Assembly (NCBI GenBank): GCA_028709965.1
Contig: JAQUTA010000013.1
Span: 1 to 34,839 of the forward strand
Reading direction: 5' to 3'
From: Lutispora sp.
Lineage (GTDB): Bacteria > Bacillota > Clostridia > Lutisporales > Lutisporaceae
Length of the DNA stretch: 34,839 nucleotides
Shown: piece after piece, positions 14,815 through 34,839 of the stretch
How positions within the stretch are numbered: the stretch's first letter is position 1
Layout: every line of letters starts with the position of its first letter
The notes under the pieces: model-generated
What the model was told of the DNA's origin: nothing
What the model saw: only the letters and a program-made list of their open reading frames with translations
Databases searched by the model: none
Made by a program: the position numbers and the translations under genes

Positions 14815-15981
14815 ATGGCAATAAAAATATCTGATCTATTATGCTTAGATTTACTTAAGGGCGCAAAAATTATTGCAGGTAAAAATGGCTTAGACAATGA
14901 AATAAAACGTGTAACATTTAATGACTGCCCTTTGGACTTAGATGTAAACAGTAAAATAATTAGAAGTGGTGATTTATACATCAATAGCTTTTATATTGTA
15001 AGAGATAATAAGGAACAACTTATTAGTTTCTTCAAGTTTTATATTGAAAATAAAAGTGCAGGAATATTTATAATTGACGAATACTTAAAAGAATTTCCCG
15101 AAGAAGTTATTGCAATGGCAAATACCCATAATTATCCAATAATTTTGATTTATAATAACACTCCTTACGCAGAAATAATTAATGCTGCAACCGGAATGAT
15201 TTTATTCGACCAATATGATACCATTGCAGAAATGAAAATTAATAATATATTAGATTCACATATAACCCCTGAAGAAATGATGAAAAGCATTGAATATTTT
15301 AATATAGATTTCAAAGAACACTACTCTTCCGTTTTTATTAAAATTAATGATGATTTTTCAAAAAAGGAAAAGTTAATACGAAGTGACCTGGAAAATATTT
15401 ACAGCATTGATTCATATAAATATAGAAACGGATTACTTGCGTTTTTTAGCTATGATGATATTAAAAAGCATTCTATTCTTATTTCTCAAATTTCTGATCT
15501 TACAAGTAAATACAGTAAAGATTACAAGATAGGTATAAGCAACTCTTTTAGTAATATTATGGATTTTAATCATTGTATAAATCAATGCATATGTGCTTGC
15601 GATTTATGCGATACAACGGATAATAACATTATTTACTACAATACACTAAACGTATATAAAATATTATATCCTATGAAAGAAAAACTTTTTCTTAAAGAAT
15701 ATATGGAAGAGATACTCAGACCTCTGGAAGAATATGATAAAATTCATAAATTAGATTTGATAAAAACATTACAAGCTTATATCAATAACGATGGTAACTA
15801 TAAAAAGGTTGGTATTGAAATTGCGCAACATGAAAACACAGCAAGATATAGGGTATCAATGGCAAAAAAAATACTTAATCTTGAAAGTAATCATATAGAT
15901 TTTATTGAGCAAATTTCTATTGCATTTAAAATCAATAAAATATTAAACAAAAAAGGGTTCTTTAAAGCAGCGCAACAATAA
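14815..15981 (+). CDS. PucR-family transcriptional regulator
   Basis: 388 residues. The N-terminal PucR domain (about 5-125) begins KISDLLCLDLLKGAKIIAG and contains the family's NDCPLDL and SGDLYINSFY stretches. The middle is a GGDEF-like alpha/beta region of the PucR/CdaR type. The C-terminal HTH_30 segment (about 325-375: LIKTLQAYINNDGNYKKVGI, then HENTARYRV) is the DNA-binding unit. Members usually sit beside, and activate, purine, amino-acid, GABA or dipeptide catabolism genes in response to a metabolite. Here it converges on the end of the dpp/AroM/DUF917 operon, the most likely target. AGAGGT lies seven bases before the ATG. Confidence 0.88.
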   Translation: MAIKISDLLCLDLLKGAKIIAGKNGLDNEIKRVTFNDCPLDLDVNSKIIRSGDLYINSFYIVRDNKEQLISFFKFYIENKSAGIFIIDEYLKEFPEEVIAMANTHNYPIILIYNNTPYAEIINAATGMILFDQYDTIAEMKINNILDSHITPEEMMKSIEYFNIDFKEHYSSVFIKINDDFSKKEKLIRSDLENIYSIDSYKYRNGLLAFFSYDDIKKHSILISQISDLTSKYSKDYKIGISNSFSNIMDFNHCINQCICACDLCDTTDNNIIYYNTLNVYKILYPMKEKLFLKEYMEEILRPLEEYDKIHKLDLIKTLQAYINNDGNYKKVGIEIAQHENTARYRVSMAKKILNLESNHIDFIEQISIAFKINKILNKKGFFKAAQQ

Positions 15982-15985
15982 AGAA

Positions 15986-16034
15986 AAAGCATTCCAGCTA
16001 AAGTTGAAATATTCAACCTTAGCAAGAATGCTTT
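15986..16034. terminator. Bidirectional terminator between pucR-type gene and the dpp operon end
   Basis: AAAGCATTC (15986-15994) and GAATGCTTT (16026-16034) pair, with an inner stem AGCTAAAGTTGAA/TTCAACCTTAGC extending it. A-rich and T-rich flanks on both sides fit convergent use. Confidence 0.8.
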
Positions 16035-16047
16035 CACTTTTTCTCTT

Positions 16048-16890
16048 TTATTCAAGCCATTTAAATCCTTGTCTTTTCATAAATTCTTTGTATCCCTGCA
16101 TACTTAAAAATCCCTCTTCTTCAAGATAGTAGCATCCAAACCAGTATTGATAAGTAGAAATAATCCCTTTGTCCAGTATATATTGCTTACATTTTTCAGC
16201 ATGCTCTACACCATGATAGGCCTTTGCAGTATTATATATCCTTTCTACAAGTTTGTCTGTGGCTTTTATCTTCTGTTTACCGTCCTTTTCCTTATATGCT
16301 TTCATAAGCATGTCTATATCTATATCTCTATATTCCTCTTCGTGTATGAGTACGCTTTTATCATATCTTAGAGGAGGGGTTGGCGTTTTTGTAGGATATC
16401 CGATTGTAACCATAACAGCAGGGCATACGTATTCGGGAATATTGAGAAGTTTGGCTGCTTCATCAATCATATTTATTATATTTCCTATATATACGGTCTT
16501 TAAACCAAAAGCTTCCGCCGCAAGACATAGCGTTTGGGCACTAATTGCTGCATCAATCAATCCCATCCAAAAATTCATAAATGTATCTGTTTCAATACAT
16601 GGGGCAGGTTCTATCTCATTTATTCTTTTAACTCGTCTGAAGTCTATACAAAATATCAAACTTACAGGTGCTTTCTCTATAAATTTTTGATTTCTACATA
16701 GTTTGACTAACTGTTCCTTTTTTTCTTTTTTAGTAACCTTAATTATTGAATATGTCTGAAAGCCTCCACTGGAAGGACTTTTGCATGCAGCATCCAAAAG
16801 CTGATTCATTATTTCTTCCGGAATTTCTTTTTCCATGTAGCTCCTGCATGTCGCTCTATTGTTTATAATATCAATAATATCATTGCTCAT
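16048..16890 (-). CDS. Nitroreductase family protein with C-terminal extension
   Basis: 280 residues. The first 195 form the nitroreductase fold: INNRATCRSYMEKEI at the FMN-binding N-terminus, ACKSPSSGGFQTYS at 34-47, and a central helix with AAEAFGLKTVYIGNI. The last 80 or so residues (KATDKLVERIYNTAKAYHGV ... YKEFMKRQGFKWLE) extend past the usual family length and look helical; they are unrecognised. It is the last gene of the dpp operon, 20 bases after the racemase gene, with GGAGAGGAG upstream of the ATG. In this context it probably performs a reductive or oxidative step on the imported substrate; the reaction is unknown. Confidence 0.88.
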   Translation of the reverse strand: MSNDIIDIINNRATCRSYMEKEIPEEIMNQLLDAACKSPSSGGFQTYSIIKVTKKEKKEQLVKLCRNQKFIEKAPVSLIFCIDFRRVKRINEIEPAPCIETDTFMNFWMGLIDAAISAQTLCLAAEAFGLKTVYIGNIINMIDEAAKLLNIPEYVCPAVMVTIGYPTKTPTPPLRYDKSVLIHEEEYRDIDIDMLMKAYKEKDGKQKIKATDKLVERIYNTAKAYHGVEHAEKCKQYILDKGIISTYQYWFGCYYLEEEGFLSMQGYKEFMKRQGFKWLE

Positions 16891-16910
16891 ATTATTCTTA
16901 TTCTCCTCTC

Positions 16911-17642
16911 CTATTTATATAGAGGGAAATTAATATTATTCATATTCAAGTTATAATTTAATGAATTTGTAAAGCCAAGCTGAATTATTGTTTCTAGAAA
17001 TTTAACACCTGTTGCCAAAGGTTCAATTACCACTATATTACAGCCTTTTGCTTTAAGCCTTTCTCTTAATTCATCTGCTATATAATACATGCCAGTACAT
17101 CCAAAACTTACTGCCTGAACTCTGTATTTCTCTTCATATCTCAAGCAGAGTTCTATTAGTTTTTTCATAAGAATGTCTTTATCTCCAAGTTCAAGTACTC
17201 CAAGCTCTACAGGTTCAATAGCAATTATTTTGTCCTTGAATCCTGAATGAGCTGCCTTTATTTCTTCACTTAAAATTCCATTTTTGTCTGTTGTTATTAT
17301 CCCAATTCTTTCTCCTAAAGATAAAGCTGTTAATAAGGATGGCAAATACCCTCCATAAACAGGTATCTTAACCAACTCGCGGATAGCAAATACCCCTGGA
17401 TCGTCAAAGCAATTAATAAATATTCCATCATACCCTTCTTGTTCAGCTTTGACAGCCTTTTTTATTATTTCTGTTGCATTAAAGATTCCATGAGTCTCAG
17501 ATTCAATTGATGGAAATCCATATTCTACGTTATCATAATCTATCATGGTTGTATCGCTTACATACCTTTTCAAATATACCTTCTGCTGCTCTTTCTTTTC
17601 ATTAGAAACTCCAGTTACAGCAGTTATCAATTTTATCCTCAT
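16911..17642 (-). CDS. Asp/Glu/hydantoin racemase family protein
   Basis: 243 residues from the ATG at 17642, preceded by GAGGTG; the open frame continues 27 codons upstream into the DUF917 gene but without a ribosome binding site. Two cysteines in the expected places, Cys78 (FINCFDDPGV) and Cys182 (SFGCTGM), form the usual proton-transfer pair of aspartate/glutamate/hydantoin racemases. These enzymes interconvert D and L forms without PLP. It lies 22 bases after DUF917 in the operon, fitting a stereo-inversion step in the breakdown of a D-amino-acid-containing or hydantoin-like compound. The substrate is not set by sequence. Confidence 0.88.
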   Translation of the reverse strand: MRIKLITAVTGVSNEKKEQQKVYLKRYVSDTTMIDYDNVEYGFPSIESETHGIFNATEIIKKAVKAEQEGYDGIFINCFDDPGVFAIRELVKIPVYGGYLPSLLTALSLGERIGIITTDKNGILSEEIKAAHSGFKDKIIAIEPVELGVLELGDKDILMKKLIELCLRYEEKYRVQAVSFGCTGMYYIADELRERLKAKGCNIVVIEPLATGVKFLETIIQLGFTNSLNYNLNMNNINFPLYK

Positions 17643-17664
17643 GCTTGTCACCTCGTATACATTT

Positions 17665-18762
17665 TTATACAAAAGGCTTCCAATCAATGTCATGTCCAAA
17701 ACTTTTAGGTCCGAAAACTTCAAGACCTCTTTCGGTAGTCCACTCTGTTGGAGCCGGTAATACTATTATAGAAACGTTTTTATCTTTTTCCCCATAAGGA
17801 TTTAATAGGGGCTCTTTATTGTCATCATCAAATATACATACCAAATCAGGAACAGTAGCAAAATATTCTCCGTTTTTCCATGTTATAATATTTTCATTTT
17901 GATACCATACCTTAAAGATATCTCCTGTGTATTCTTCCTTACCCTCTACCACAAGATTTCCAATTGTAAATCCTTTTACAGTGTCCCAATCATTAGATTT
18001 AACTATACCTCTAAACACTACAACGCCATTCCCTGTTTCTGCAACTTTCGATGCAATATCTTTTTGATTTTCTTTAGCCATTCTAAAAGCTTTGCCGATT
18101 TCTAAAGCTTGTGATATTGCTCCTCTAATAACTGAATTTCTAAGCACTTTTACAGTTTCAACATGGTCGACAACGGCAATATTATTTTGACTTACTACAG
18201 CCATAGCTCTTACCAATGCTTCTGCTCGATAATCGTTTACTACTTTTGTAATGATGGCAGACTCTCCAAATTTATTTACAACAGAAATAGGATATATATT
18301 CAATTCATTAAGAAAATATGTGGAATGCTGTAATTCAGGTACCGATCTTCCTGCTGGATCCGCATCAATTATATATTTGCCTGACATTGCTCCACAATAT
18401 AATGCTGTAGCCGTATTTCCTCCTCCAAGTTCAGTGGAAATTACTGCTTTAATTTCTTTTCCCAAATATTTTTCCATTTCTCTTAAAGCAACAACCTGGG
18501 GCACTTCATCGATAAGTGAAAGTCCTTCGTATTTCTTTTTTTCTTCTTCCGTAAGAGGCGAAATAGCTCCACAAGAATATGGCGTTGCAACTAAATCTTC
18601 ATCCTCTAGCTCATTAAAATCAACTAATACAAATTCCTTGTCTAACTTTAATGCAGCGTCAATTTTTTTTATTCCTTCAATAAGGCTTCCACCACCACCG
18701 GTGCCAAGTATGGCACATCCTACTAATATATCAACTAAATCCTGTCTATCTAATTTCTTCAT
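17665..18762 (-). CDS. DUF917 family protein (S-methyl-thiohydantoin desulfurase-like)
   Basis: 365 residues, the usual family length. The N-terminal VGCAILGTGGGGSLIEG, the STELGGGNTATAL stretch, and DADPAGRSVPELQHSTYF (about 133-150) are hallmarks of DUF917. More recent family naming ties it to S-methyl-thiohydantoin desulfurase, and members often occur with hydantoinase or racemase genes. It lies between the AroM-like and racemase genes, with GGAGG five bases before the ATG and only 15 bases after the AroM-like stop. A role in processing a cyclic imide or peptide-derived compound is inferred from context. Confidence 0.88.
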   Translation of the reverse strand: MKKLDRQDLVDILVGCAILGTGGGGSLIEGIKKIDAALKLDKEFVLVDFNELEDEDLVATPYSCGAISPLTEEEKKKYEGLSLIDEVPQVVALREMEKYLGKEIKAVISTELGGGNTATALYCGAMSGKYIIDADPAGRSVPELQHSTYFLNELNIYPISVVNKFGESAIITKVVNDYRAEALVRAMAVVSQNNIAVVDHVETVKVLRNSVIRGAISQALEIGKAFRMAKENQKDIASKVAETGNGVVVFRGIVKSNDWDTVKGFTIGNLVVEGKEEYTGDIFKVWYQNENIITWKNGEYFATVPDLVCIFDDDNKEPLLNPYGEKDKNVSIIVLPAPTEWTTERGLEVFGPKSFGHDIDWKPFV

Positions 18763-18777
18763 TTCGTCCTCCTTATG

Positions 18778-19437
18778 TCATCGAATTAAACTTTTTATCA
18801 TATTAGGCATAAATACCCTGGGTACAATAATGTTTTTACCCGAAGTTTCTTTAACAATTCTCCCCATCTCTTCAGTAAATCCCATGCAATCTGTCAATAT
18901 TAATTCTACATCTTCTTGTTTGAACTGCTGTGCGGTTGTTCTTAAATTCTCTATGTCTTTGTAGGGAGAAGCAGCTTTTATTACTGGATTAAAATTTCTG
19001 TATTGTTCCATAGAATCACATATTTGATCTTTTTCAGGAACTATTATTCCTACCTTGGATATTCCAAGGCCTCGCAATATGCCGTAAATAATATTTTCAG
19101 GTATTACAACAAGCCCTTTAGTTTTAACTCTTTCAAAATGTCCTGTGCAAAAGATAAGAATATTATTTACCCCAGAGTTTTCTAATTCCTTTATCTTTAA
19201 ATTTATAAGCTCCATAGCTTTGTCTGTTGAAACCATTATATTTTTATTGTCCTGAATTTTAGATACAATAAAGGATTCATTTTCTTCTGGCCATAAATTT
19301 TCCCGTATATATTCATAGGTATATCCATCAACAATTCCACTAACATTTACATTGATTTCATCTCCAAAAATTTCTATGACATCGCTTATTTTTTTGACAT
19401 CTCCCGATCCCATCATGACAATACCCAATTGCCTCAC
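18778..19437 (-). CDS. AroM family protein
   Basis: 219 residues. The N-terminus RQLGIVMMGSG, a central FCTGHF, and the VELILTDCMGF stretch near 178-189 match the AroM family, whose fold resembles Asp/Glu racemases but whose reaction is unknown. The start is GTG with GGGGGG about seven bases upstream. It lies between the transporter ATPase and DUF917. AroM, DUF917 and oligopeptide transporter genes are reported together in other bacteria, which supports a shared peptide-related pathway; this is from general knowledge, not a search. Confidence 0.85.
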   Translation of the reverse strand: MRQLGIVMMGSGDVKKISDVIEIFGDEINVNVSGIVDGYTYEYIRENLWPEENESFIVSKIQDNKNIMVSTDKAMELINLKIKELENSGVNNILIFCTGHFERVKTKGLVVIPENIIYGILRGLGISKVGIIVPEKDQICDSMEQYRNFNPVIKAASPYKDIENLRTTAQQFKQEDVELILTDCMGFTEEMGRIVKETSGKNIIVPRVFMPNMIKSLIR

Positions 19438-19451
19438 TTAAAATCCCCCCA

Positions 19452-21254
19452 TTATAAATTATGCTCTATGCCTAAATTTGAATAAAGCAAACATGACACA
19501 TAATGATTGTCTGACAAATAAGTCACATTTGGCTCTATGTTCTTGCAATCTTCTATGCAACTTGTACATCTCGTATGGAATCTGCATCCTGAAGGAGGGT
19601 TAATAGGACTGGGGATATTTCCTTCTAACGTTGTAAGATGCTCTATTCCAATCTTTTTTATATCAGGTATTGAGTTAAATAGTGCTTTAGTATAGGGATG
19701 TTTTGGACTTTTAAAAACTTCATTTGCAGGTCCAAACTCAACCACCTTGCCAAGATACATTACCGCTATTCTGCTTGCCATTTGATTGACAACTCCAAGA
19801 TCATGGGAAATAAGTATATTAGTAAGATCAAACTTAGTTTTCAGATGCTGAAGTAATTCTAATATCTGAGCCTGAGAGAATACATCTATGGAAGAAGTAG
19901 GTTCATCTAGTACAATAATTTTTGGTTGGGAAGCTAAAGATCTTGCTATTGCAATCCTTTGTCTTTCACCTCCGCTGAACTCATGGGGATATTTAAAGGC
20001 GGCATCCTTTTCTAATCCAACCATTTTTAATAGTTCATTTACTCTTTCCAGTTTTTCATTATTTTTAATTTTCTCATGCACATCTATTGGCTCTGAAATA
20101 ATATCCTTAACAAGTAGTCTGGGATTCAGTGACCAATAAGGATCCTGGAATACTATTTGAATATCTTTTCTTATTTTCCTTACATTTTCCTTGCTTTGTT
20201 CGTAAATATTTTTACCTTCAAAATATACGCTACCCTCTGTGGGTTCGAAAAGCTTTAATATAGTGTTGACTAATGTTGATTTTCCACACCCCGATTCGCC
20301 AACTATACCAAGAACCTCTCCCTTTTTTATATCAAAGCTCACTCCATCTACTGCTTTGAGTGTAAGACCTTTTTGTTTTTTAAGCGGATCATTAATCTTG
20401 AAATATTTTTTTAAATTTTGAACTTTTAATATAATGTCATCGTTAATATTATCTTTTTTTGCTTCTTTTTTAATATTGGCAGCCTCTATCAATAATTTTG
20501 AATATTCTTGCTGTGGATTCTTTACTAATTCTTCAGTAACTCCCTGCTCAATAATTTTGCCGCCATACAATATTCCAACTCTGTCACAAAAAGCTGACAC
20601 AAGGCTTAGATTGTTGGCAATAAAAAGTACTGTCATTTTATATTCTTTCTGCAATTCTTTAAGAAGCTTAAGCATGCTTGCTTGTATAGTTGCATCAAGG
20701 TTTCTAGTAGGTTCATCTGCTATCATAAGCTCTGCTCCGCATGATAATGCTAGTGCAATGATTATACGCTGTCTTTGTCCTCCACTCAGCTCATGAGGAT
20801 ATTTAGTCAGCACATTACCAGGGTCAGCTAATTTTACTGTTTCAAGAGTTTTTACAGCTTCTTTAATAGCTTCTTTTTCACTTATCTTTCTATTTTTTCT
20901 TATAACTTCGACCATCTGCTCTTTAACAGTAAAAACCGGATTTAATGTTGACATTGGATCTTGAAAAATCATAGCTATTTTTTTACCCCTGACCTCTTTC
21001 TGTAGGTAATTAAAGCCCTTCTCCAGTAAATTTACACCATCTAAAACTATTTCTCCGCTTTCTATTTCTCCAGGAGGACACTGTAAAAGTTTTAATATAG
21101 TAAGTGCAAGAACAGTCTTTCCTTGACCGCTTTCTCCTACAATTCCATAGGTAGTGCCCTTTTCTATGCTTATATTATCAATATCTAATACACGTTTTTT
21201 ACCATCAAAGGCATTATGGTTTACTTTAAGATTTTTAATTTCAAAAAAAGCCAT
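19452..21254 (-). CDS. Dipeptide/oligopeptide ABC transporter, fused DppD-DppF double ATPase
   Basis: 600 residues carrying two nucleotide-binding domains in one chain. The first (about 1-260) has Walker A GESGQGKT at 40-47 and signature LSGGQRQR. The second (about 275-600) has GESGCGKST and FSGGERQRIAIARSL, and ends with the oligopeptide-family Cys-rich motif GCRFHTRCTSCIEDC. The first Walker A has Gln where the usual Ser/Cys-Gly-Ser is found, a tolerated variant. Most dpp/opp loci have separate D and F genes; the fusion fixes their 1:1 ratio. AGGAGG lies upstream, and the gene follows the dppC-like gene by 15 bases. Confidence 0.92.
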   Translation of the reverse strand: MAFFEIKNLKVNHNAFDGKKRVLDIDNISIEKGTTYGIVGESGQGKTVLALTILKLLQCPPGEIESGEIVLDGVNLLEKGFNYLQKEVRGKKIAMIFQDPMSTLNPVFTVKEQMVEVIRKNRKISEKEAIKEAVKTLETVKLADPGNVLTKYPHELSGGQRQRIIIALALSCGAELMIADEPTRNLDATIQASMLKLLKELQKEYKMTVLFIANNLSLVSAFCDRVGILYGGKIIEQGVTEELVKNPQQEYSKLLIEAANIKKEAKKDNINDDIILKVQNLKKYFKINDPLKKQKGLTLKAVDGVSFDIKKGEVLGIVGESGCGKSTLVNTILKLFEPTEGSVYFEGKNIYEQSKENVRKIRKDIQIVFQDPYWSLNPRLLVKDIISEPIDVHEKIKNNEKLERVNELLKMVGLEKDAAFKYPHEFSGGERQRIAIARSLASQPKIIVLDEPTSSIDVFSQAQILELLQHLKTKFDLTNILISHDLGVVNQMASRIAVMYLGKVVEFGPANEVFKSPKHPYTKALFNSIPDIKKIGIEHLTTLEGNIPSPINPPSGCRFHTRCTSCIEDCKNIEPNVTYLSDNHYVSCLLYSNLGIEHNL

Positions 21255-21269
21255 TTCAGTTCCTCCTTT

Positions 21270-22160
21270 CTACTTCTTTCTCGTTTTAGGATCTAATATT
21301 TCACGTACACCATCACCAAGTAAGTTAAATGCAAGCACTGTAACAAATATGGCTAAACCAGGAAATATACTATACCACCAAACATCAGGAAAGTACTTCC
21401 TGCTGATGCTAATCATTAGCCCCCATTCAGGCGTAGGAGGTTGTGCTCCAAGACCTAAGAAGCTTAAAGATGCAATAGTGAGTATAACACCTCCCATATC
21501 CATAGAAGCTTGCACTATTACCGGAGATATAGTATTAGGTATAATATGCTTTAGAATAATCTTATAATCCGGTGTTCCTATTGTTTGAGCTGCTTGAATA
21601 AACTTTCTCTCCTTAAGGGAAATAGCTTGACCCCTTACAAGCCTTGTATACCAAGGCCACCATGACACTGCTATAGCTATAATAGCATTATTTAAACTTG
21701 GTCCCAGTAATGATACCAGTACTATAGCCAAAAGAAGGGGCGGAAAACTTAAAAACATGTCCGTTATCCTCATTATTACTTCATCTATTACCCCTCCTCT
21801 AAACCCTGCTATTGCACCAAGGGGTATCCCAATAAGAACTGCAAGACCAACGGCAAGTATACCGGTGGAAATAGATACTCTCGTTCCATAAAGAACACGG
21901 CTAAATATATCTCTTCCCAACTCATCGGTTCCGAAGAAATGCTTCCCCGAAGGCGGCATAAATTTATTTTGAATATTGGCTTCATCTGATATATGCTCTG
22001 GATAAGGAATTATATAAGGTGAAAGTATAGCAATCAGTACAATGGCCAAGATTAGATACAGCGCTATTGCTGTTAACTTGTTTCTCCTTAGTAGATATAT
22101 AGATTCCTTGAATACTTTTATCTTTGGTTTGATTGTCTCTTTTATTACACTGTAATTCAT
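21270..22160 (-). CDS. Dipeptide/oligopeptide ABC transporter permease DppC-like
   Basis: 296 residues. A cytoplasmic N-terminus leads into one span (about 31-52), the family motif FFGTDELGRDIFSRVLYGTR (about 74-93), and five further spans. An EAA-type loop (SFLGLGAQPPTPEWG) lies near 234-248. It is one of the two permeases of the importer. AGGTGA lies upstream of the ATG, 12 bases after the DppB-like gene. Confidence 0.93.
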   Translation of the reverse strand: MNYSVIKETIKPKIKVFKESIYLLRRNKLTAIALYLILAIVLIAILSPYIIPYPEHISDEANIQNKFMPPSGKHFFGTDELGRDIFSRVLYGTRVSISTGILAVGLAVLIGIPLGAIAGFRGGVIDEVIMRITDMFLSFPPLLLAIVLVSLLGPSLNNAIIAIAVSWWPWYTRLVRGQAISLKERKFIQAAQTIGTPDYKIILKHIIPNTISPVIVQASMDMGGVILTIASLSFLGLGAQPPTPEWGLMISISRKYFPDVWWYSIFPGLAIFVTVLAFNLLGDGVREILDPKTRKK

Positions 22161-22172
22161 ATGCTCACCTCT

Positions 22173-23183
22173 CTATAACCTTATTCTCGGATCTAATGCT
22201 ATGATTAAATCTGCTATAAGATTAAGTATTACATAACATGTAGCAGAGAATATAGTTACTCCTATTATTGCAGGATAGTCTAGCGTTGTTACAGCTGTAG
22301 CAACATAATTCCCAAGTCCCGGCCAACTGAATATAGTTTCTATTAAAAATGTATTTACCAAAGTATACCCAAGAGATAATGTAAGAACAGTGGCTGTAGG
22401 TCCTAAAGTATTTTTAAGTGCATATTTCCATAATACTTTGGTTTCCGAAACTCCATATGACCTTATTGATGCTATATAATCTTCATTCAAAACCTCTAAT
22501 AATGCAGATCTAGTCATTCTGGCAACAAGACCTATAGGGTATAAGGCTATAGTAATGCCAGGCAATATTATGTGAATAAACGCATCTTTAAATATCATGA
22601 AATTACTGGTAATAAGACTATCTAGCAGAAGCATTCCTGTAATATCTGGAACATTGTAAAATATTGTTGTTTCTAGGCTTAATCTCCCTCCAAGAGGAAG
22701 CAACCCTAACTTTTTATAAAAAACAAGCTGTAAAAACAAAGCAACCCAAAATGCAGGCAGTGATACAGAGCCTATTGAAAAAAATCTGCTTACATGATCA
22801 AGCATTTTATCCTTTTGCTTAGCGGAATATATCCCCAAAGGAATACCAATTATTACAGCAAGCAAAAACCCAAATATAACAATTTCAAGTGTTGCCGGAA
22901 TATAAGCAGCCAACTCCTGAGTGATAGGCTGTTTAGTTCTCAAAGATCTGCCAAGATTTCCTTTTAATAAGTCTCTTATATAATTTGCATATTGCACCGG
23001 CATTGGCTTATCTAGTCCAAGCTCTTTTTCCGCCATAGCAATCTGCTCAGGGGTGGCCTTAGGGCCAACCCACTTCGCAGCTGGATCTGAGGGAATTACT
23101 CTTGCCATTATGAAAGTAATTGTGATTACTCCCAAAAGGACTATAATGCCAGTAATTATTCGTTTGAAAATATATTTTTTCAT
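22173..23183 (-). CDS. Dipeptide/oligopeptide ABC transporter permease DppB-like
   Basis: 336 residues, six hydrophobic spans. The family N-terminus YIFKRIITGIIVLLGVITI, the RVIPSDPAAKWVGPKATPEQ stretch, and the coupling loop RSYGVSETKVLWKYALKNT are present. It is placed right after the binding protein, as usual. GGGGGAA precedes the ATG. Confidence 0.93.
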   Translation of the reverse strand: MKKYIFKRIITGIIVLLGVITITFIMARVIPSDPAAKWVGPKATPEQIAMAEKELGLDKPMPVQYANYIRDLLKGNLGRSLRTKQPITQELAAYIPATLEIVIFGFLLAVIIGIPLGIYSAKQKDKMLDHVSRFFSIGSVSLPAFWVALFLQLVFYKKLGLLPLGGRLSLETTIFYNVPDITGMLLLDSLITSNFMIFKDAFIHIILPGITIALYPIGLVARMTRSALLEVLNEDYIASIRSYGVSETKVLWKYALKNTLGPTATVLTLSLGYTLVNTFLIETIFSWPGLGNYVATAVTTLDYPAIIGVTIFSATCYVILNLIADLIIALDPRIRL

Positions 23184-23217
23184 TGTAATTTCCCCCTAAA
23201 GGTAAATGTATACCATA

Positions 23218-24795
23218 TTATTTATATAGATCAAAATATCTAACTACAGTAGGATATGCAGGATTTGTGGTAAATCCTTTGAGATCTTTACTAATTCCAT
23301 AAGTGGCTGATTTATCATACATATGAATAAAATATGCTTCGTCAATGATCTCTTTTTGCATATCAATCATTATCTGCTCTGCTTTGTCTCTATCAGTAAC
23401 TGTTAGCATAGAAGCTTCATGCATTTTTGCATCAAGATCAGTATTTTTAATGTATGACAAGTTAAAGAATATTTTATCCTCTGAACGAACTAATCCTTCA
23501 AACCAGCTTATAGGGCTTGGATAATCCGGCCACCATATGAATAAGAATATATCTTGTCTATCCTTAGGATTAGGATTCTTTGCTTTTTCCCACTGTGCAT
23601 CCCAAGACATTTCCCTTATTTCAAGATTAATTCCAAGTTTTTTAAGATTAATTTGAAATAGTTGTGCAAAGTTTCTATATTCATCATAGCCTGAGCTTAT
23701 TGTCATCTCGATAGTTAATCCATCTGTTTTAACTCCTGACTTATCAAGATATTCTTTAGCCTTATCTAAGTCAAAGTTATATTGCATCAAATCTTCACTA
23801 TGTCCCCACAATCCACCCGGAATAAGTCCGTGAGATTGTACACCTTGTCCTTCGAGAACATTGTTTACTGTTTCTTCATAAGGGAATGCATAACTTAGGG
23901 CTCTCCTAAAGTCAACATTATCTAATGGATATTTCTCTGTATTTAAGCATCCAACCACTGTGTCATATAAAGGTCTTTGAACAATTTGTACTTTGTCAGA
24001 TTTTTTCATTGCTTCTATATCCGTTGTAGAAAAATTAACTGAAATCTGTGCTTCTTCTTTTTCCAACAATTGTCTTCTTGCACTGCTTTCTGGAACTTTT
24101 TTCATAATAATGCTAGTGTATTGATTCTCTTTCCAAGGTCTCCAGTAATCATCAAACTTTTCTAATACTACTTCTTCTCCTGCAACAGCTTTTTGAATTT
24201 TATATGGACCTGTACCCGCACCGTTGCCTTGGTTAAACCAGTCACTGTCTTTCTCTGCAGCATCTGGAGATATTATAAATGCTGCATAAGCTGCAGATGC
24301 TATCAAGTCAATGGGTGCTGGATATTTCAAATTAAACTTAACTTCGTATTTATCAATTAATTCAATGCTTTCAACGCTATCCCAAATAAAGGATGCGCCA
24401 AGACCTAACTCCATAGTCCTATCTATAGATTTTTTTACTGCTTCTGCATTTAAGTCCGTCCCATCATGGAACTTTACTCCTTCTTTAATCTTAAAAGTCC
24501 ATGACTTTCCATCCTCACTTGCAGACCAGCTTTCTGCAAGCATAGGGTCAATTTTACCTGTTTCATAATTGTAATAGGTAAGCATTTCGTAAGTATTATG
24601 CAATACCATTACGCCGTTTGAATTTTCTACGCTTGGATCTAAGTTAATATAGGGTGTATTTCCATTAGCTTGGAATAATAAGTTTTTTGCTCCTTCTCCT
24701 CCACCCTTAGTTGTCCCTCCCCCTGAACAACCAGCTATCAATGAAACTACCAAAACAATGACCAACAACAAACTAATTAGTCTTTTGTTTTTCAT
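23218..24795 (-). CDS. Dipeptide/oligopeptide ABC transporter substrate-binding lipoprotein (SBP family 5)
   Basis: 525 residues. The signal peptide ends at AGC (Cys23), followed by a Gly-rich linker. The mature part has the family 5 signature YEMLTYYNYETGKIDPMLAE and SWTFKIKEGVKFHDGTDLNA, and the late DDYWRPWKENQYTSI region. Family 5 proteins bind di- to oligopeptides, nickel chelates, opines or glutathione-like compounds; the ligand is not predictable by eye. It is the first gene of the operon, with AAGGAGGAGG before the ATG, a candidate promoter about 70-100 bases upstream, and a palindrome in its leader. Confidence 0.93.
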   Translation of the reverse strand: MKNKRLISLLLVIVLVVSLIAGCSGGGTTKGGGEGAKNLLFQANGNTPYINLDPSVENSNGVMVLHNTYEMLTYYNYETGKIDPMLAESWSASEDGKSWTFKIKEGVKFHDGTDLNAEAVKKSIDRTMELGLGASFIWDSVESIELIDKYEVKFNLKYPAPIDLIASAAYAAFIISPDAAEKDSDWFNQGNGAGTGPYKIQKAVAGEEVVLEKFDDYWRPWKENQYTSIIMKKVPESSARRQLLEKEEAQISVNFSTTDIEAMKKSDKVQIVQRPLYDTVVGCLNTEKYPLDNVDFRRALSYAFPYEETVNNVLEGQGVQSHGLIPGGLWGHSEDLMQYNFDLDKAKEYLDKSGVKTDGLTIEMTISSGYDEYRNFAQLFQINLKKLGINLEIREMSWDAQWEKAKNPNPKDRQDIFLFIWWPDYPSPISWFEGLVRSEDKIFFNLSYIKNTDLDAKMHEASMLTVTDRDKAEQIMIDMQKEIIDEAYFIHMYDKSATYGISKDLKGFTTNPAYPTVVRYFDLYK

Positions 24796-29845: not shown

Positions 29846-30853
29846 TCAAGCATGGGTTTGGGGAGCCGAATTTTTTTTAGCCGTATATAACTCATCTCTC
29901 TCTGGAGGTAAAATAGATATATGATTATCTCCTGAAATCAAAAGCTTCTCTTTTTCAGTAATCTTTCCTACGATATAAGCATCAATTCCTCGGGATTCCA
30001 AAGCTTCCAGTACTTCGTTTCCTTTTGGTGTACATATAAGCATTGAGCCACTCGAAATTAGACAAAGAGGGTCAATTTGAAAAAAATCACAGATAGCCTT
30101 GGTCTCGGGTAAAATTGGAAGCTTGTCCTTTATTATTTTTATCCCTACTCCAGATGCCTCAGCTACTTCGTAAGCTGCCCCCAACAATCCACCTTCGGTT
30201 ATATCGTGCATAGCAGATGCTCCCACTTTGGCCGCAGCGAGACCTTCCTCAATAACTCCGATTTTTTCTATAAAACTTTTAGCACTATGTAAAAGCTCCG
30301 CAGGTATTCTTTTTTTTAAAAGCTCTTCATAATCAAATGCTAATATAGCTGTGCCCTCAAGCCCAAGAGCCTTGGTAACAATTACATCATCACCCGCTTT
30401 GGCTCCAGAAGAAGTTACATACTCATTCCTCTTTGCAATTCCCAAAGCGGTTACTGAAATTATCGGTTTGACAACCGCATCTGTAATCTCACTGTGACCT
30501 CCTAAAACCTCTACCCCAATTTCATTAGCTGCATTGTGGATGCCTTCCATTAAATCCTTCAGCCTATTCTCATCAGTTCCTTCGGGCAGAAGCAGCGTCA
30601 CCATTATTCCTAAGGGGTTTGCCCCACAAGCAGCAATATCATTGCAAGAAACAAATACAGAAAGATACCCGCTATTTTTATTGGCTCCGGTGATGGGGTC
30701 TGTGGAAACAACCGCTACATTATTACCAAAATCAATGATGCTGCAGTCTTCACCAAAACCAGAATGAACTAAAACTTCTTTTCTCATAACTCCAAGATGT
30801 GGATAAACAACCCTTTTTAAGATTTCTGGAGGTACTTTCCCAATTTTCAACAC
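29846..30853 (-). CDS. AIR synthase/HypE-related protein
   Basis: 335 residues. It has the two-domain ATP-binding fold of the AIR synthase/HypE/ThiL group: VHSGFGEDCSIIDFG at 30-44, VSTDPITGANKNSGY (about 49-63), VSCNDIAACGANPLG, a GGHSEIT near 118-124 and a later MHDITEGGLLGA (about 215-226). The catalytic Cys/Sec of SelD and the C-terminal Cys of HypE are absent, so it is a separate subgroup. Members often lie next to xdhC-type genes in Clostridia and probably help mature molybdenum hydroxylases; the reaction is unknown. The start is GTG with AGGAG six bases upstream. It lies nine bases after the ECF gene. Confidence 0.85.
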   Translation of the reverse strand: MLKIGKVPPEILKRVVYPHLGVMRKEVLVHSGFGEDCSIIDFGNNVAVVSTDPITGANKNSGYLSVFVSCNDIAACGANPLGIMVTLLLPEGTDENRLKDLMEGIHNAANEIGVEVLGGHSEITDAVVKPIISVTALGIAKRNEYVTSSGAKAGDDVIVTKALGLEGTAILAFDYEELLKKRIPAELLHSAKSFIEKIGVIEEGLAAAKVGASAMHDITEGGLLGAAYEVAEASGVGIKIIKDKLPILPETKAICDFFQIDPLCLISSGSMLICTPKGNEVLEALESRGIDAYIVGKITEKEKLLISGDNHISILPPERDELYTAKKNSAPQTHA

Positions 30854-30862
30854 TGATCACTC

Positions 30863-31354
30863 CTAAAAATTATTCTCATCATTGAAGTATATATTTTTCA
30901 ATCTCTTGTATAGAGGTATTGCTATTACCCCTCCTATAAACACCTGAACAAAGTCACCTGCCAATTCTACAGGCACAGCGCCAACGCCGTACAAAATCCC
31001 AGCAGCTGTTGCATATCCTATCATCATAAATATTGCACCTGCTGCTACTGCAATGTAGGGATTAAACTTTCTTGCAAGGATACCAACAATAAACCCCTCT
31101 ATACCTTTTATTACAAGAGTTATTGGCGCCCAAACAGGATAACCGCCTAAAACATCTGACAATGCAGATCCAACTCCTCCTATTATTGCACCGGCAGGTC
31201 CGCCAAAAATAAGAGCGACTAAATATATTACAGATTCGCCAAGGTTGAAGTAAAGATTAAATGTAGGCACAGGAAATCGAAAAATTGTGGTTGCAATAAC
31301 CAAAAAAGCCATAAACAACCCTAAAAAGGCAACTTTTTTAATTCTTTTATCCAT
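30863..31354 (-). CDS. ECF transporter S component (substrate-binding membrane protein)
   Basis: 163 residues from the ATG at 31354, with GGGGGAAG upstream; a frame extension of twelve codons is less likely. There are about five or six hydrophobic spans. The short loops NLYFNLGESVIYLVALIFGG and GGVGSALSDVLGGYPVWAP match the ECF-type S component family (vitamin or cofactor precursor uptake). S components bind the substrate and use a shared EcfAAT module encoded elsewhere. The substrate is unknown; the neighbours (XdhC and AIR-synthase-like) suggest a cofactor precursor of a molybdoenzyme. Confidence 0.85.
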   Translation of the reverse strand: MDKRIKKVAFLGLFMAFLVIATTIFRFPVPTFNLYFNLGESVIYLVALIFGGPAGAIIGGVGSALSDVLGGYPVWAPITLVIKGIEGFIVGILARKFNPYIAVAAGAIFMMIGYATAAGILYGVGAVPVELAGDFVQVFIGGVIAIPLYKRLKNIYFNDENNF

Positions 31355-31406
31355 AAAGCTTCCCCCAAAATGTAGTTTGTTTTTTAACATCGAACATTAT
31401 ACATAT

Positions 31407-31434
31407 ACTATATAGCATAATGTTTTTCTGTAAA
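31407..31434 (-). promoter_or_regulatory. Promoter of the ECF/AIR-synthase pair
   Basis: On the minus strand TTTACA (31429-31434) and TATAGT (31407-31412) are separated by 16 bases, in the 161-base gap after xdhC. The pair may thus be transcribed apart from xdhC. Confidence 0.5.
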
Positions 31435-31515
31435 AGTAAGCTAAGGAAAATAAGTTAGAAGGGGGAAAAATTTGTAGAAGTGTATCGATACGCCACCATA
31501 TGAAAAACTCTATTC

Positions 31516-32583
31516 CTAAAATACTTCAATGAGCACATCCATTATCCCACCGCATACCATGCCTTCGGATTCAGCAACTTCACCGGTCATATCCACATGC
31601 TCAATTAGAAAACCTTTGTCAGCCATAATTGTTCTTGCACTAGCTATGACCCCCGCTTCACTGCAGCCACCGCCTATGCTTCCAATGGTTCTCCCATCTT
31701 GATAAAGCACCATCTTAGCGCCTGCTTTTCTTGGGGTGGAACCTTTAGAAGACAATATAGTTATAAGAGCTCTGGGCATTGATGACTCTTCGGAAATATT
31801 TTGCACCACTTCCACGTCAAATTCAGGAAAGACGAAGCCTTTGCCAAACCTATCAATGCTACTCTTATTTTTGAAACTTATAAGCTGGGCAATTATTGAT
31901 ATAGCTATCTCATCTGGGGTGACAGCGCCTATATCAATTCCTATGGGGGATTTAACCAAATCCAGCTTTTCTTTTGCAAATCCTTCCCTTGATAATTCCT
32001 CCATCATGGCACGAACTCTTCGTTTCGAGCCTATCATGCCGGTGTAACTGAGATCGTGCTGCAAAGCTTCACGCAAGACTATTCCATCATGTCTATGACC
32101 CCTTGTTACAATAACTACAAAATCGGTTTTCCTAAAATTGATCAAATCAAAAGATTTCTCAAAGCTTTCACAAATAACTTTCTCTGCATCAGGAAACCGT
32201 CCTATATTGGCAAAGGAGGGTCTATCATCTATGACAGTAATAGAAAAACCTACCCTAGTTGCAAATTCCGATACAGGTTTAGCCACATGTCCACCGCCGA
32301 AAATAATCAAACGTGGCTTGGGAACGAAGGGTTCGATTAAGAGGTTTTTGTTCTCTTCTATATTGATTATCTCAAGCTTTCCTGTATCCAAAGAAAGATT
32401 TATTTTTTCATAGACATCGTTATGTAAAGGATAAGATTTGTTTTCTACATCCTCTTTTGTTAAGAGGAACTTTTTTCCAATATGTCCATTTGGATCACTT
32501 TGTGAGCTGAGAAAGGTTAACATTGCACATTTACTGCCATCATTTATTTTAGTTAATAACGTTTCATATAAATAACTAAACAT
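31516..32583 (-). CDS. XdhC/CoxI family maturation factor, Rossmann domain first
   Basis: 355 residues from the ATG at 32583, preceded by AAGGGTGG; a GTG nine codons upstream has no ribosome binding site. Residues about 88-230 form the XdhC Rossmann domain (RLIIFGGGHVAKPVSEFA, VIDDRPSFANIGRFPDA, TRGHRHDGIVLREAL). The CoxI-like unit comes last (about 267-350: ITILSSKGSTPRKAGAKMVL, GSIGGGCSEAGVI, MVCGGIMDVLIE). In the best-known XdhC proteins the CoxI unit is first. XdhC proteins carry and sulfurate molybdenum cofactor for insertion into hydroxylases. No hydroxylase gene lies in the window. Confidence 0.88.
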   Translation of the reverse strand: MFSYLYETLLTKINDGSKCAMLTFLSSQSDPNGHIGKKFLLTKEDVENKSYPLHNDVYEKINLSLDTGKLEIINIEENKNLLIEPFVPKPRLIIFGGGHVAKPVSEFATRVGFSITVIDDRPSFANIGRFPDAEKVICESFEKSFDLINFRKTDFVVIVTRGHRHDGIVLREALQHDLSYTGMIGSKRRVRAMMEELSREGFAKEKLDLVKSPIGIDIGAVTPDEIAISIIAQLISFKNKSSIDRFGKGFVFPEFDVEVVQNISEESSMPRALITILSSKGSTPRKAGAKMVLYQDGRTIGSIGGGCSEAGVIASARTIMADKGFLIEHVDMTGEVAESEGMVCGGIMDVLIEVF

Positions 32584-32811
32584 TTTACCACCCTTTGTTA
32601 TATTTTTCACTTTTTTATATTAAGGAAATAATTCAAGCCTGATCTGACTATGTGCAAGCCTTTTCGTCTTGAAATAGTCTCAATCTATGCAAACTGCGCT
32701 TCATATAACTCCTTATAATATCCATAGAGGAAATGGAGTACCAGCCCACCTCTGGTTTCTTTAGAATGAAGAAATCAGAGATAAACAACTGTACTTAAAG
32801 TATTACTGTTA

Positions 32812-33897: not shown

Positions 33898-34839
33898 TTA
33901 CAATCTGCTCAGCTCTATAATAATTTGCTTGTACTCCCTATCAAGAGCTTCAATGTCGTCATTTTTAGATGGCATACTCAATTTTCCCAATATTTCTGCC
34001 ATGCGGTGCTGAAGTACCATTTTGTCTATAGATTTATCATATTGTTGTGCAGATACTTCTTTCTTTTGGCTATACTCTTTATATGTCCCATCAAAGCATA
34101 TGGTTTTCTGATTCTCAATAGATATTATATGATCGGCAACATTACTTACAAATCTTCTATCGTGAGAAACAAAGACCACAGTCCCGTTATAGCTTAGTAT
34201 TGCTTCCTCTACAGCTTCCATTGAGTATATGTCCAGATAATTGGTGGGTTCGTCTAAAACCAGTAGATTAAAATCGCTTACGATTATTTTAGCTAAAGCT
34301 GCTTTTACTCTTTCGCCGCCGCTTAATAAGGAAACCTTTTTCATAACGTCTTCCTGCTTAAAAAGGAGCCTTGCAAGCATAATCCTTACAAAAGTTTCAT
34401 CATATATGCTACTTTCCATAACATTTTGGAGCAATGTCTTGTTGCTCTCTAAAACACTCATATCCTGGTTGAAGTAGCCTATTTTAGCAGCTATAGCTCT
34501 ATTTATTGCCGGATAGCCATTTATAATCATTTTGATAAGCGTGGTCTTACCGCTTCCGTTTGGACCTATAACCGCAGTTTTACTATTATTAAGTACCTTA
34601 AATTGTGCCTCTTTGAAAACGACTTTATCTCCGAAGCTTTTATCAAGCCCATCAGAACTCAATATCACTTTGGAATAAAGCTGTCTTGTCTTCTGTATAT
34701 CCAAATTGATTTCCGGCAATTTCTTTGGTTTTTCTTTCACATCAAGTTTTTCAATCCTGGTTCTAATGGCATTAGCCCGTCTATCAAGGGTTGCTTTTGC
34801 AGCCTGATTGCTCATTTTGTGAAGCCGTGCCTCTGAATT
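33898..34839 (-). CDS. ABC-F ribosomal protection-type ATPase, C-terminal part (runs off right edge)
   Basis: The frame is open through the right edge (at least nine codons before the Met at 34815), so this is the linker and second ATPase domain of a longer protein. The linker (ATLDRRANAIRTRIEKLDVKE) is charged and helical. The ATPase has GPNGSGKTT, LSGGERVKAALAKII and LLVLDEPTNYLD, then VFVSHDRRFV. The tail MAEILGKLSMPSKNDDIEA, then LDREY, is typical of the Lsa/Vga/Msr group of antibiotic-resistance ABC-F proteins that displace ribosome-bound lincosamides, pleuromutilins, streptogramins or macrolides. Which drugs cannot be told without the interdomain loop. TAA at 33898. Confidence 0.85.
   Translation of the reverse strand, partial: NSEARLHKMSNQAAKATLDRRANAIRTRIEKLDVKEKPKKLPEINLDIQKTRQLYSKVILSSDGLDKSFGDKVVFKEAQFKVLNNSKTAVIGPNGSGKTTLIKMIINGYPAINRAIAAKIGYFNQDMSVLESNKTLLQNVMESSIYDETFVRIMLARLLFKQEDVMKKVSLLSGGERVKAALAKIIVSDFNLLVLDEPTNYLDIYSMEAVEEAILSYNGTVVFVSHDRRFVSNVADHIISIENQKTICFDGTYKEYSQKKEVSAQQYDKSIDKMVLQHRMAEILGKLSMPSKNDDIEALDREYKQIIIELSRL

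Follow-up and report, generated by a model that had tools for sequence, protein, structure and literature searches.

Passages of earlier reports describe the closest relatives of the genes considered here. XdhC binds molybdenum-molybdopterin (Mo-MPT) and protects it until its sulfur ligand has been inserted (PMC2997495), PF07155 is the family of PdxU and PdxU2/HmpT (PMC9997740), of which HmpT carried pyridoxamine (PMC4860826), and CblS and CblT are an alpha-ribazole kinase and transporter found mostly in Firmicutes (PMC6461909; PMC5064896). The locus that we compare with them lies on a contig of Lutispora sp. (JAQUTA010000013.1, assembly GCA_028709965.1), of which positions 1 to 34,839 are called the window below. 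In order along the minus strand it encodes an XdhC-type protein, the S component of an energy-coupling factor (ECF) transporter and a protein of the AIR-synthase/PurM superfamily, hereafter AIRS. The initial annotation had read these genes as a single molybdenum maturation and uptake cassette. All three ORFs (open reading frames) were indeed found on the minus strand of the window, but their distribution and gene order across genomes disagree with the cassette. The trio is two separate things, a lone XdhC and a neighbouring ECF-AIRS pair that recurs elsewhere.

The XdhC gene occupies positions 31516-32583 (minus strand). Its longest ORF runs from 31516 to 32610, and the better start is the ATG at 32583 behind the ribosome-binding site AAAGGGTGG, the same gene end that had been annotated at first. 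The product, expected to act in cofactor maturation of molybdenum hydroxylases, matches XdhC_CoxI (PF02625) and XdhC_C (PF13478) with 75.0 and 146.2 bits, both above the Pfam cut-off, and it is of a swapped-domain type in which the Rossmann XdhC_C domain comes first and XdhC_CoxI second. The S component of the PdxU/HmpT family (PF07155, 118.5 bits for a cut-off of 26.7) is the first gene of the pair and lies at 30863-31354 (minus strand); its longest ORF is 30863-31390, with a likely start at 31354 preceded by GGGGGA. The second gene of the pair, AIRS, at 29846-30853 (minus strand), encodes 335 amino acids with the domains PF00586 and PF02769 in a Pfam profile search, and its sequence is that of a probable ATP-dependent small-molecule kinase. 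The ECF and AIRS genes are separated by 9 bases, while a gap of 161 bases lies between the end of XdhC and the start of the ECF gene. Within this gap a pattern match to a promoter (TTTACA-16-TATAGT, 31407-31434, minus strand) suggests that XdhC and the ECF gene may be transcribed separately; since 17 such matches were observed in the region against 9.8 expected in shuffles, this site is weak by itself.

The ECF-AIRS arrangement recurs. At 18 of the 49 distinct loci of the main AIRS clade, defined here by a score of at least 250 bits to the window's AIRS protein after removal of identical copies and of the window itself (weaker members such as L118 fall outside), AIRS is directly preceded by a co-oriented ECF gene at a distance of -89 to 33 bases, and L106, paired by its coordinates, adds to these. 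In the AIRS tree such pairs turn up in widely separated places, from Lutispora to Bathyarchaeota (L033). In the ECF tree the paired S components fall in one clade (support 99/93), apart from those of L111 and L112, whose position in another clade means that more than one S-component lineage has entered or retained the pairing. Among 245 genomes sampled from the class, 84 carry a main-clade AIRS gene (89 minus five genomes of the weak, degenerate AIRS group f26), and this putative kinase clade reaches Bathyarchaeota and perhaps Haloferax. A match to a profile of the paired S components (E up to 1e-12) was present in 77 of these 84 genomes and in 77 of the 161 without AIRS (odds ratio 12). This test and those below compare raw genome and family counts, uncontrolled for genome size, with presence and family lists compiled by hand.

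The initial annotation had proposed co-occurrence across genomes as one way to check the cassette. When run, this comparison joined the ECF gene with AIRS, as the adjacency does, and XdhC with molybdenum hydroxylases, but distribution and gene order did not join XdhC with the pair. Among the 245 genomes, 38 have XdhC, 43 have MoCoBD_1 and 37 have both, leaving a single genome with XdhC alone (G083) and six of the 43 with the hydroxylase domain alone; at the family level, all 16 families with XdhC have a molybdenum hydroxylase. The link that had been drawn between XdhC and these enzymes is sound. It had also been noted that the window encodes no hydroxylase, and none was found among the window ORFs scanned with Pfam and NCBIfam (ORFs 168-1804 and 21270-22160 lay outside the scan), but the genome itself holds four MoCoBD_1 and five AFOR_C matches, all on other contigs and some at contig ends. 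Because XdhC protects Mo-MPT for such enzymes, the window's XdhC most likely serves xanthine-dehydrogenase-type enzymes encoded elsewhere in the genome.

As in known XdhC proteins (TIGR02964/NF045664, PF02625 plus PF13478), both domains are above their Pfam cut-offs, the cysteine of the CoxI domain is kept (Cys316 in GGGCSE, numbered from the 32610 start) and co-occurrence with molybdenum hydroxylases is nearly strict. Unlike them, the window's protein has swapped domains, falls below both NCBIfam cut-offs (307.7 bits for a cut-off of 350 with NF045664) and has no hydroxylase seen at its locus. The domain order is reversed relative to both the NCBIfam model and the solved homologue 3on5, which aligns as two separate segments in the opposite order. 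The class scan gave 16 genomes in which a single contiguous match spans both domains in the swapped order (a hand count, in which one match is cut inside the second domain).

XdhC has a distribution of its own. Although 24 of the 245 genomes encode AIRS as well as XdhC, the two lie within 5 kb of each other in only two (G000 and G020) and some 16-17 kb apart on the same contig in two more (G030 and G211). In G020, apparently the genome that holds locus L014, an oppositely oriented PALP gene intervenes between XdhC and the ECF gene. G054, a 97% complete genome of the same genus, keeps the pair and has no XdhC or molybdenum-hydroxylase match at the thresholds used. For the other close XdhC relatives that were fetched (L046-L050), the 18-20 kb of each locus gave no ECF or AIRS match. 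Over the whole sample, a molybdenum hydroxylase is missing from 56 of the 84 AIRS genomes. The loci of XdhC relatives with 34-38% identity (L052-L055) resemble selenium-molybdenum clusters, mostly as judged by eye. In L053, SelD (394 bits), YedF, YqeB and YqeC exceed their NCBIfam cut-offs, whereas the match of a MocA-like protein falls short of its own, a composition that parallels the selenium-molybdenum cluster in the relevant passages of PMC2432076. In the clusters seen, the AIRS-fold protein that shares a locus with XdhC is SelD-like, as confirmed for L053. SelD is a different protein from AIRS, and a selenium role for AIRS was rejected on this ground.

AIRS itself falls below the curated cut-offs of ThiL (TIGR01379, 136.9 bits for 184.15), HypE (TIGR02124, 124.5 for 251.6) and SelD (102.8 for 125). 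We take the catalytic residue of SelD to be its N-terminal Cys or Sec and that of HypE to be its C-terminal Cys. AIRS has no Cys before residue 70 except Cys37, within a GEDC motif, and none at its C-terminus (..APQTHA), which agrees with the earlier observation that the catalytic residues of both enzymes are lacking. Its solved relatives are led by HypE (2z1e, 3vti), followed by ThiL. It resembles HypE in having these as its closest solved structures by sequence, and differs from it in the missed cut-off, the missing C-terminal Cys and the fact that no hydrogenase genes were recognised beside it in the window. With ThiL it shares the superfamily and the nucleotide-site aspartates, while the cut-off is missed, no thiamine genes were recognised beside AIRS and the gene shows no association with ThiE. 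Asp36, Asp52, Asp72 and Asp217 are invariant in all 22 aligned rows. Main-clade proteins carry GEDCS, DPITG, GGHTEVT and SSGSM, with a C-terminal RDEL in many members.

A sister clade of 15 rows (support 98/92) mostly has GVDAA, DPIF, GGHTGYY or GGHTGFY, and SEGTL; the tree was built without duplicate loci and without L086, L094, L106 and L114, and one row from the window's own genome, L066 (branch 4.87), is badly placed in it. Members of the sister clade lie at L077 6586-7626, L081 6790-7830, L083 6525-7547, L089 810-1922 and L095 5503-7119, in part within longer ORFs of 517-538 amino acids. Thiamine pyrophosphate (TPP) riboswitches were found at six of the 10 sister-clade loci scanned, and at L081, L083 and L089 the neighbours include ThiE, ThiD or ThiG, as Pfam confirmed. 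Canonical ThiL is above its cut-off in none of the 245 class genomes and in nine of 14 control genomes. Given this context and the missing ThiL, the sister clade is a candidate replacement thiamine-phosphate kinase. Judged by sequence, this branch looks like a set of small-molecule kinases in which the acceptor side of the main clade differs from that of the thiamine clade. The divergent group f26 (L090 6358-7326, L091 6606-7580, L092 6342-7322 and L093 6466-7524) has altered active-site aspartates (for example NDxA to NGLA or NSL), and its neighbours, labelled by eye, are a small regulator-like gene and an aminotransferase-like gene.

For the S component, the sole match among PDB sequences at E up to 1 is HmpT (4hzu_S), a member of the same family (PdxU2, PF07155, COG4720). 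Seven HmpT residues are named as conserved or pyridoxamine-contacting in passages of PMC4860826. The corresponding residues of the window's protein are Glu52, Trp87, Lys95, Tyr126, Glu142, Asp146 and Gln149 (175-residue numbering), and four of the seven are kept (the equivalents of Glu41, Trp76, Tyr120 and Gln143). Unlike HmpT, the window's protein has three pocket residues replaced and is paired with a PurM-superfamily gene. A further group of PF07155-type S components is encoded within cobU-cobS-phosphatase rows at L120-L128 (for example L120 6821-7342), with CobT in L126 and L127; CobU, CobS, the phosphatase, the S component and CobT were confirmed by Pfam in L120/L126, the remaining cob-linked loci by eye. 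These proteins have Asp for Glu41, Phe for Trp76 and Asn at 140, and a ligand common to them and the window's S component should therefore not be presumed. They are candidate CblT transporters with a distinct pocket. No vitamin or molybdenum cofactor (Moco) riboswitch was found at the nine cob-linked loci.

The reading that we favour, and hold to be rather probable, is that two unrelated functions stand side by side, an independent XdhC and an ECF-AIRS salvage pair. XdhC would bind Mo-MPT and protect it for sulfuration and insertion into xanthine-dehydrogenase-type enzymes encoded elsewhere, and its placement here would be a local accident of the genus. The S component would capture a small hydroxylated heteroaromatic vitamin precursor and deliver it through a shared ECF module. 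AIRS, a ThiL/HypE-like protein with nucleotide-site aspartates, would then phosphorylate the precursor with ATP, which would leave it trapped and activated. Its substrate may be a B6 vitamer or of the hydroxymethylpyrimidine (HMP) type, a choice that we make tentatively; alpha-ribazole is a somewhat unlikely candidate, and a compound of another kind altogether is a real prospect to which we would lean slightly more than to either, still short of calling it probable. It is conceivable, although we would not press the point, that the pair is an undescribed vitamin-salvage module, with a kinase clade whose substrate lies outside the activities of ThiL, HypE, SelD and CblS and an S-component subgroup marked by a Glu/Trp/Lys/Asp/Gln pocket. 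A literature search for an AIR-synthase/ECF pair returned nothing relevant. A role in B6 metabolism argued from neighbouring pyridoxal-phosphate enzymes was considered and rejected, since such neighbours occur at 3 of 39 loci and among 54 of 770 control ORFs, which is no enrichment; the count leaves out near-duplicate Clostridium loci.

Several observations weigh against this favoured explanation. AIRS without an adjoining ECF gene is the commoner state (31 of 49 loci), as in Clostridium, where AIRS precedes rph/rdgB-like genes (labelled by eye). The main AIRS clade is split from the thiamine clade with only moderate support (92/84), and in the S component the pyridoxamine pocket of HmpT is altered at His84, Ser136 and Asn140, which are Lys, Glu and Asp in the window. 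TPP, cobalamin and Moco riboswitches were looked for in the window and at the pair loci scanned and none was found; the T-boxes at those loci belong, by eye, to divergent serS genes. Finally, AIRS is enriched with molybdenum hydroxylases, both by genome (28 of 84 against 15 of 161) and by family (15 of 30 against 5 of 43, p = 0.0005), and also with CobS (53 of 84 against 45 of 161 genomes; 20 of 30 against 12 of 43 families, p = 0.0017), so co-occurrence singles out no one partner. Genome size or metabolic breadth may explain both enrichments.

The alternative that survives best, possible but on the whole doubtful, is that the pair is CblT-CblS, the S component importing alpha-ribazole and AIRS acting as the alpha-ribazole kinase that feeds the cobalamin synthase CobS. 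The CblT-CblS system as described is like the pair in joining an ECF S component with a small-molecule kinase in Firmicutes, and CblS may itself belong to the PurM superfamily. The enrichment of AIRS with CobS fits this alternative, and the window's own genome has CobS; nevertheless CobS is missing from 31 of the 84 AIRS genomes. At least nine genomes, eight of them with AIRS elsewhere, encode PF07155-type S components no more than 3.7 kb from cobS, with 33-39% identity to that of the window, but the pocket of these cob-linked proteins (L120-L128) is Asp/Phe/Asn where the window has Glu/Trp/Asp, and no AIRS match stood beside CobS among the matches listed, compared by eye. The lack of a cobalamin riboswitch at the scanned pair loci also counts against alpha-ribazole. 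On a Haloferax plasmid, an AIRS relative of about 40% identity (L116 6001-7008) precedes genes for cobyrinic acid a,c-diamide synthase and adenosyltransferase on the same strand, which favours a cobalamin role.

Less probable again, and in our view improbable, is that AIRS stands in for the thiamine-phosphate kinase while the S component imports a thiamine precursor such as HMP. The best NCBIfam match of AIRS is ThiL, whose canonical form is missing from the class genomes as given above, and the sister clade has a clear thiamine setting. The main clade, however, departs from that clade at the very motifs compared (DPITG against DPIF, GGHTEVT against GGHTGYY, SSGSM against SEGTL), and both clades coexist in G157, G245, G308 and G409, while G430 has the main clade with the deeper row L087. 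ThiE is present in 53 of the 84 AIRS genomes and missing from 31, and it is present in 93 of the 161 others (p = 0.49); the window's genome, 88% complete, has no ThiE match at E up to 1e-20. Orthology of AIRS with ThiL was rejected on the TIGR01379 cut-off and the ThiE distribution. That XdhC, ECF and AIRS constitute a single step of uptake and maturation that serves a molybdenum or selenium-labile hydroxylase is very improbable: the adjacency in the window, the tie of XdhC to molybdenum hydroxylases, the moderate enrichment of AIRS with the same enzymes and the pairing of the AIRS-fold protein SelD with XdhC in selenium-molybdenum loci such as L053 speak for it, and the unit was nonetheless rejected on the distribution and gene order described above.

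Elsewhere in the window, positions 14815-24795 hold a row of genes for a PucR-type regulator, a nitroreductase, an Asp/Glu racemase, an S-Me-THD protein, AroM and a peptide/nickel-type ABC transporter, likely a small-molecule catabolic cluster. At 33898-34815 (minus strand) lies a half-length ABC-F protein of 305 amino acids that aligns with the C-terminal half of ribosomal-protection ABC-F models; as this ORF sits at the edge of the window and contig, it may simply be cut.

With the false molybdenum-cassette reading removed, a testable pair remains, an importer subunit and a probable kinase, found side by side in lineages far apart. If the substrate were named, a gene of 84 of the 245 class genomes would have a function, and it would be settled how a cofactor precursor is salvaged in some anaerobes.

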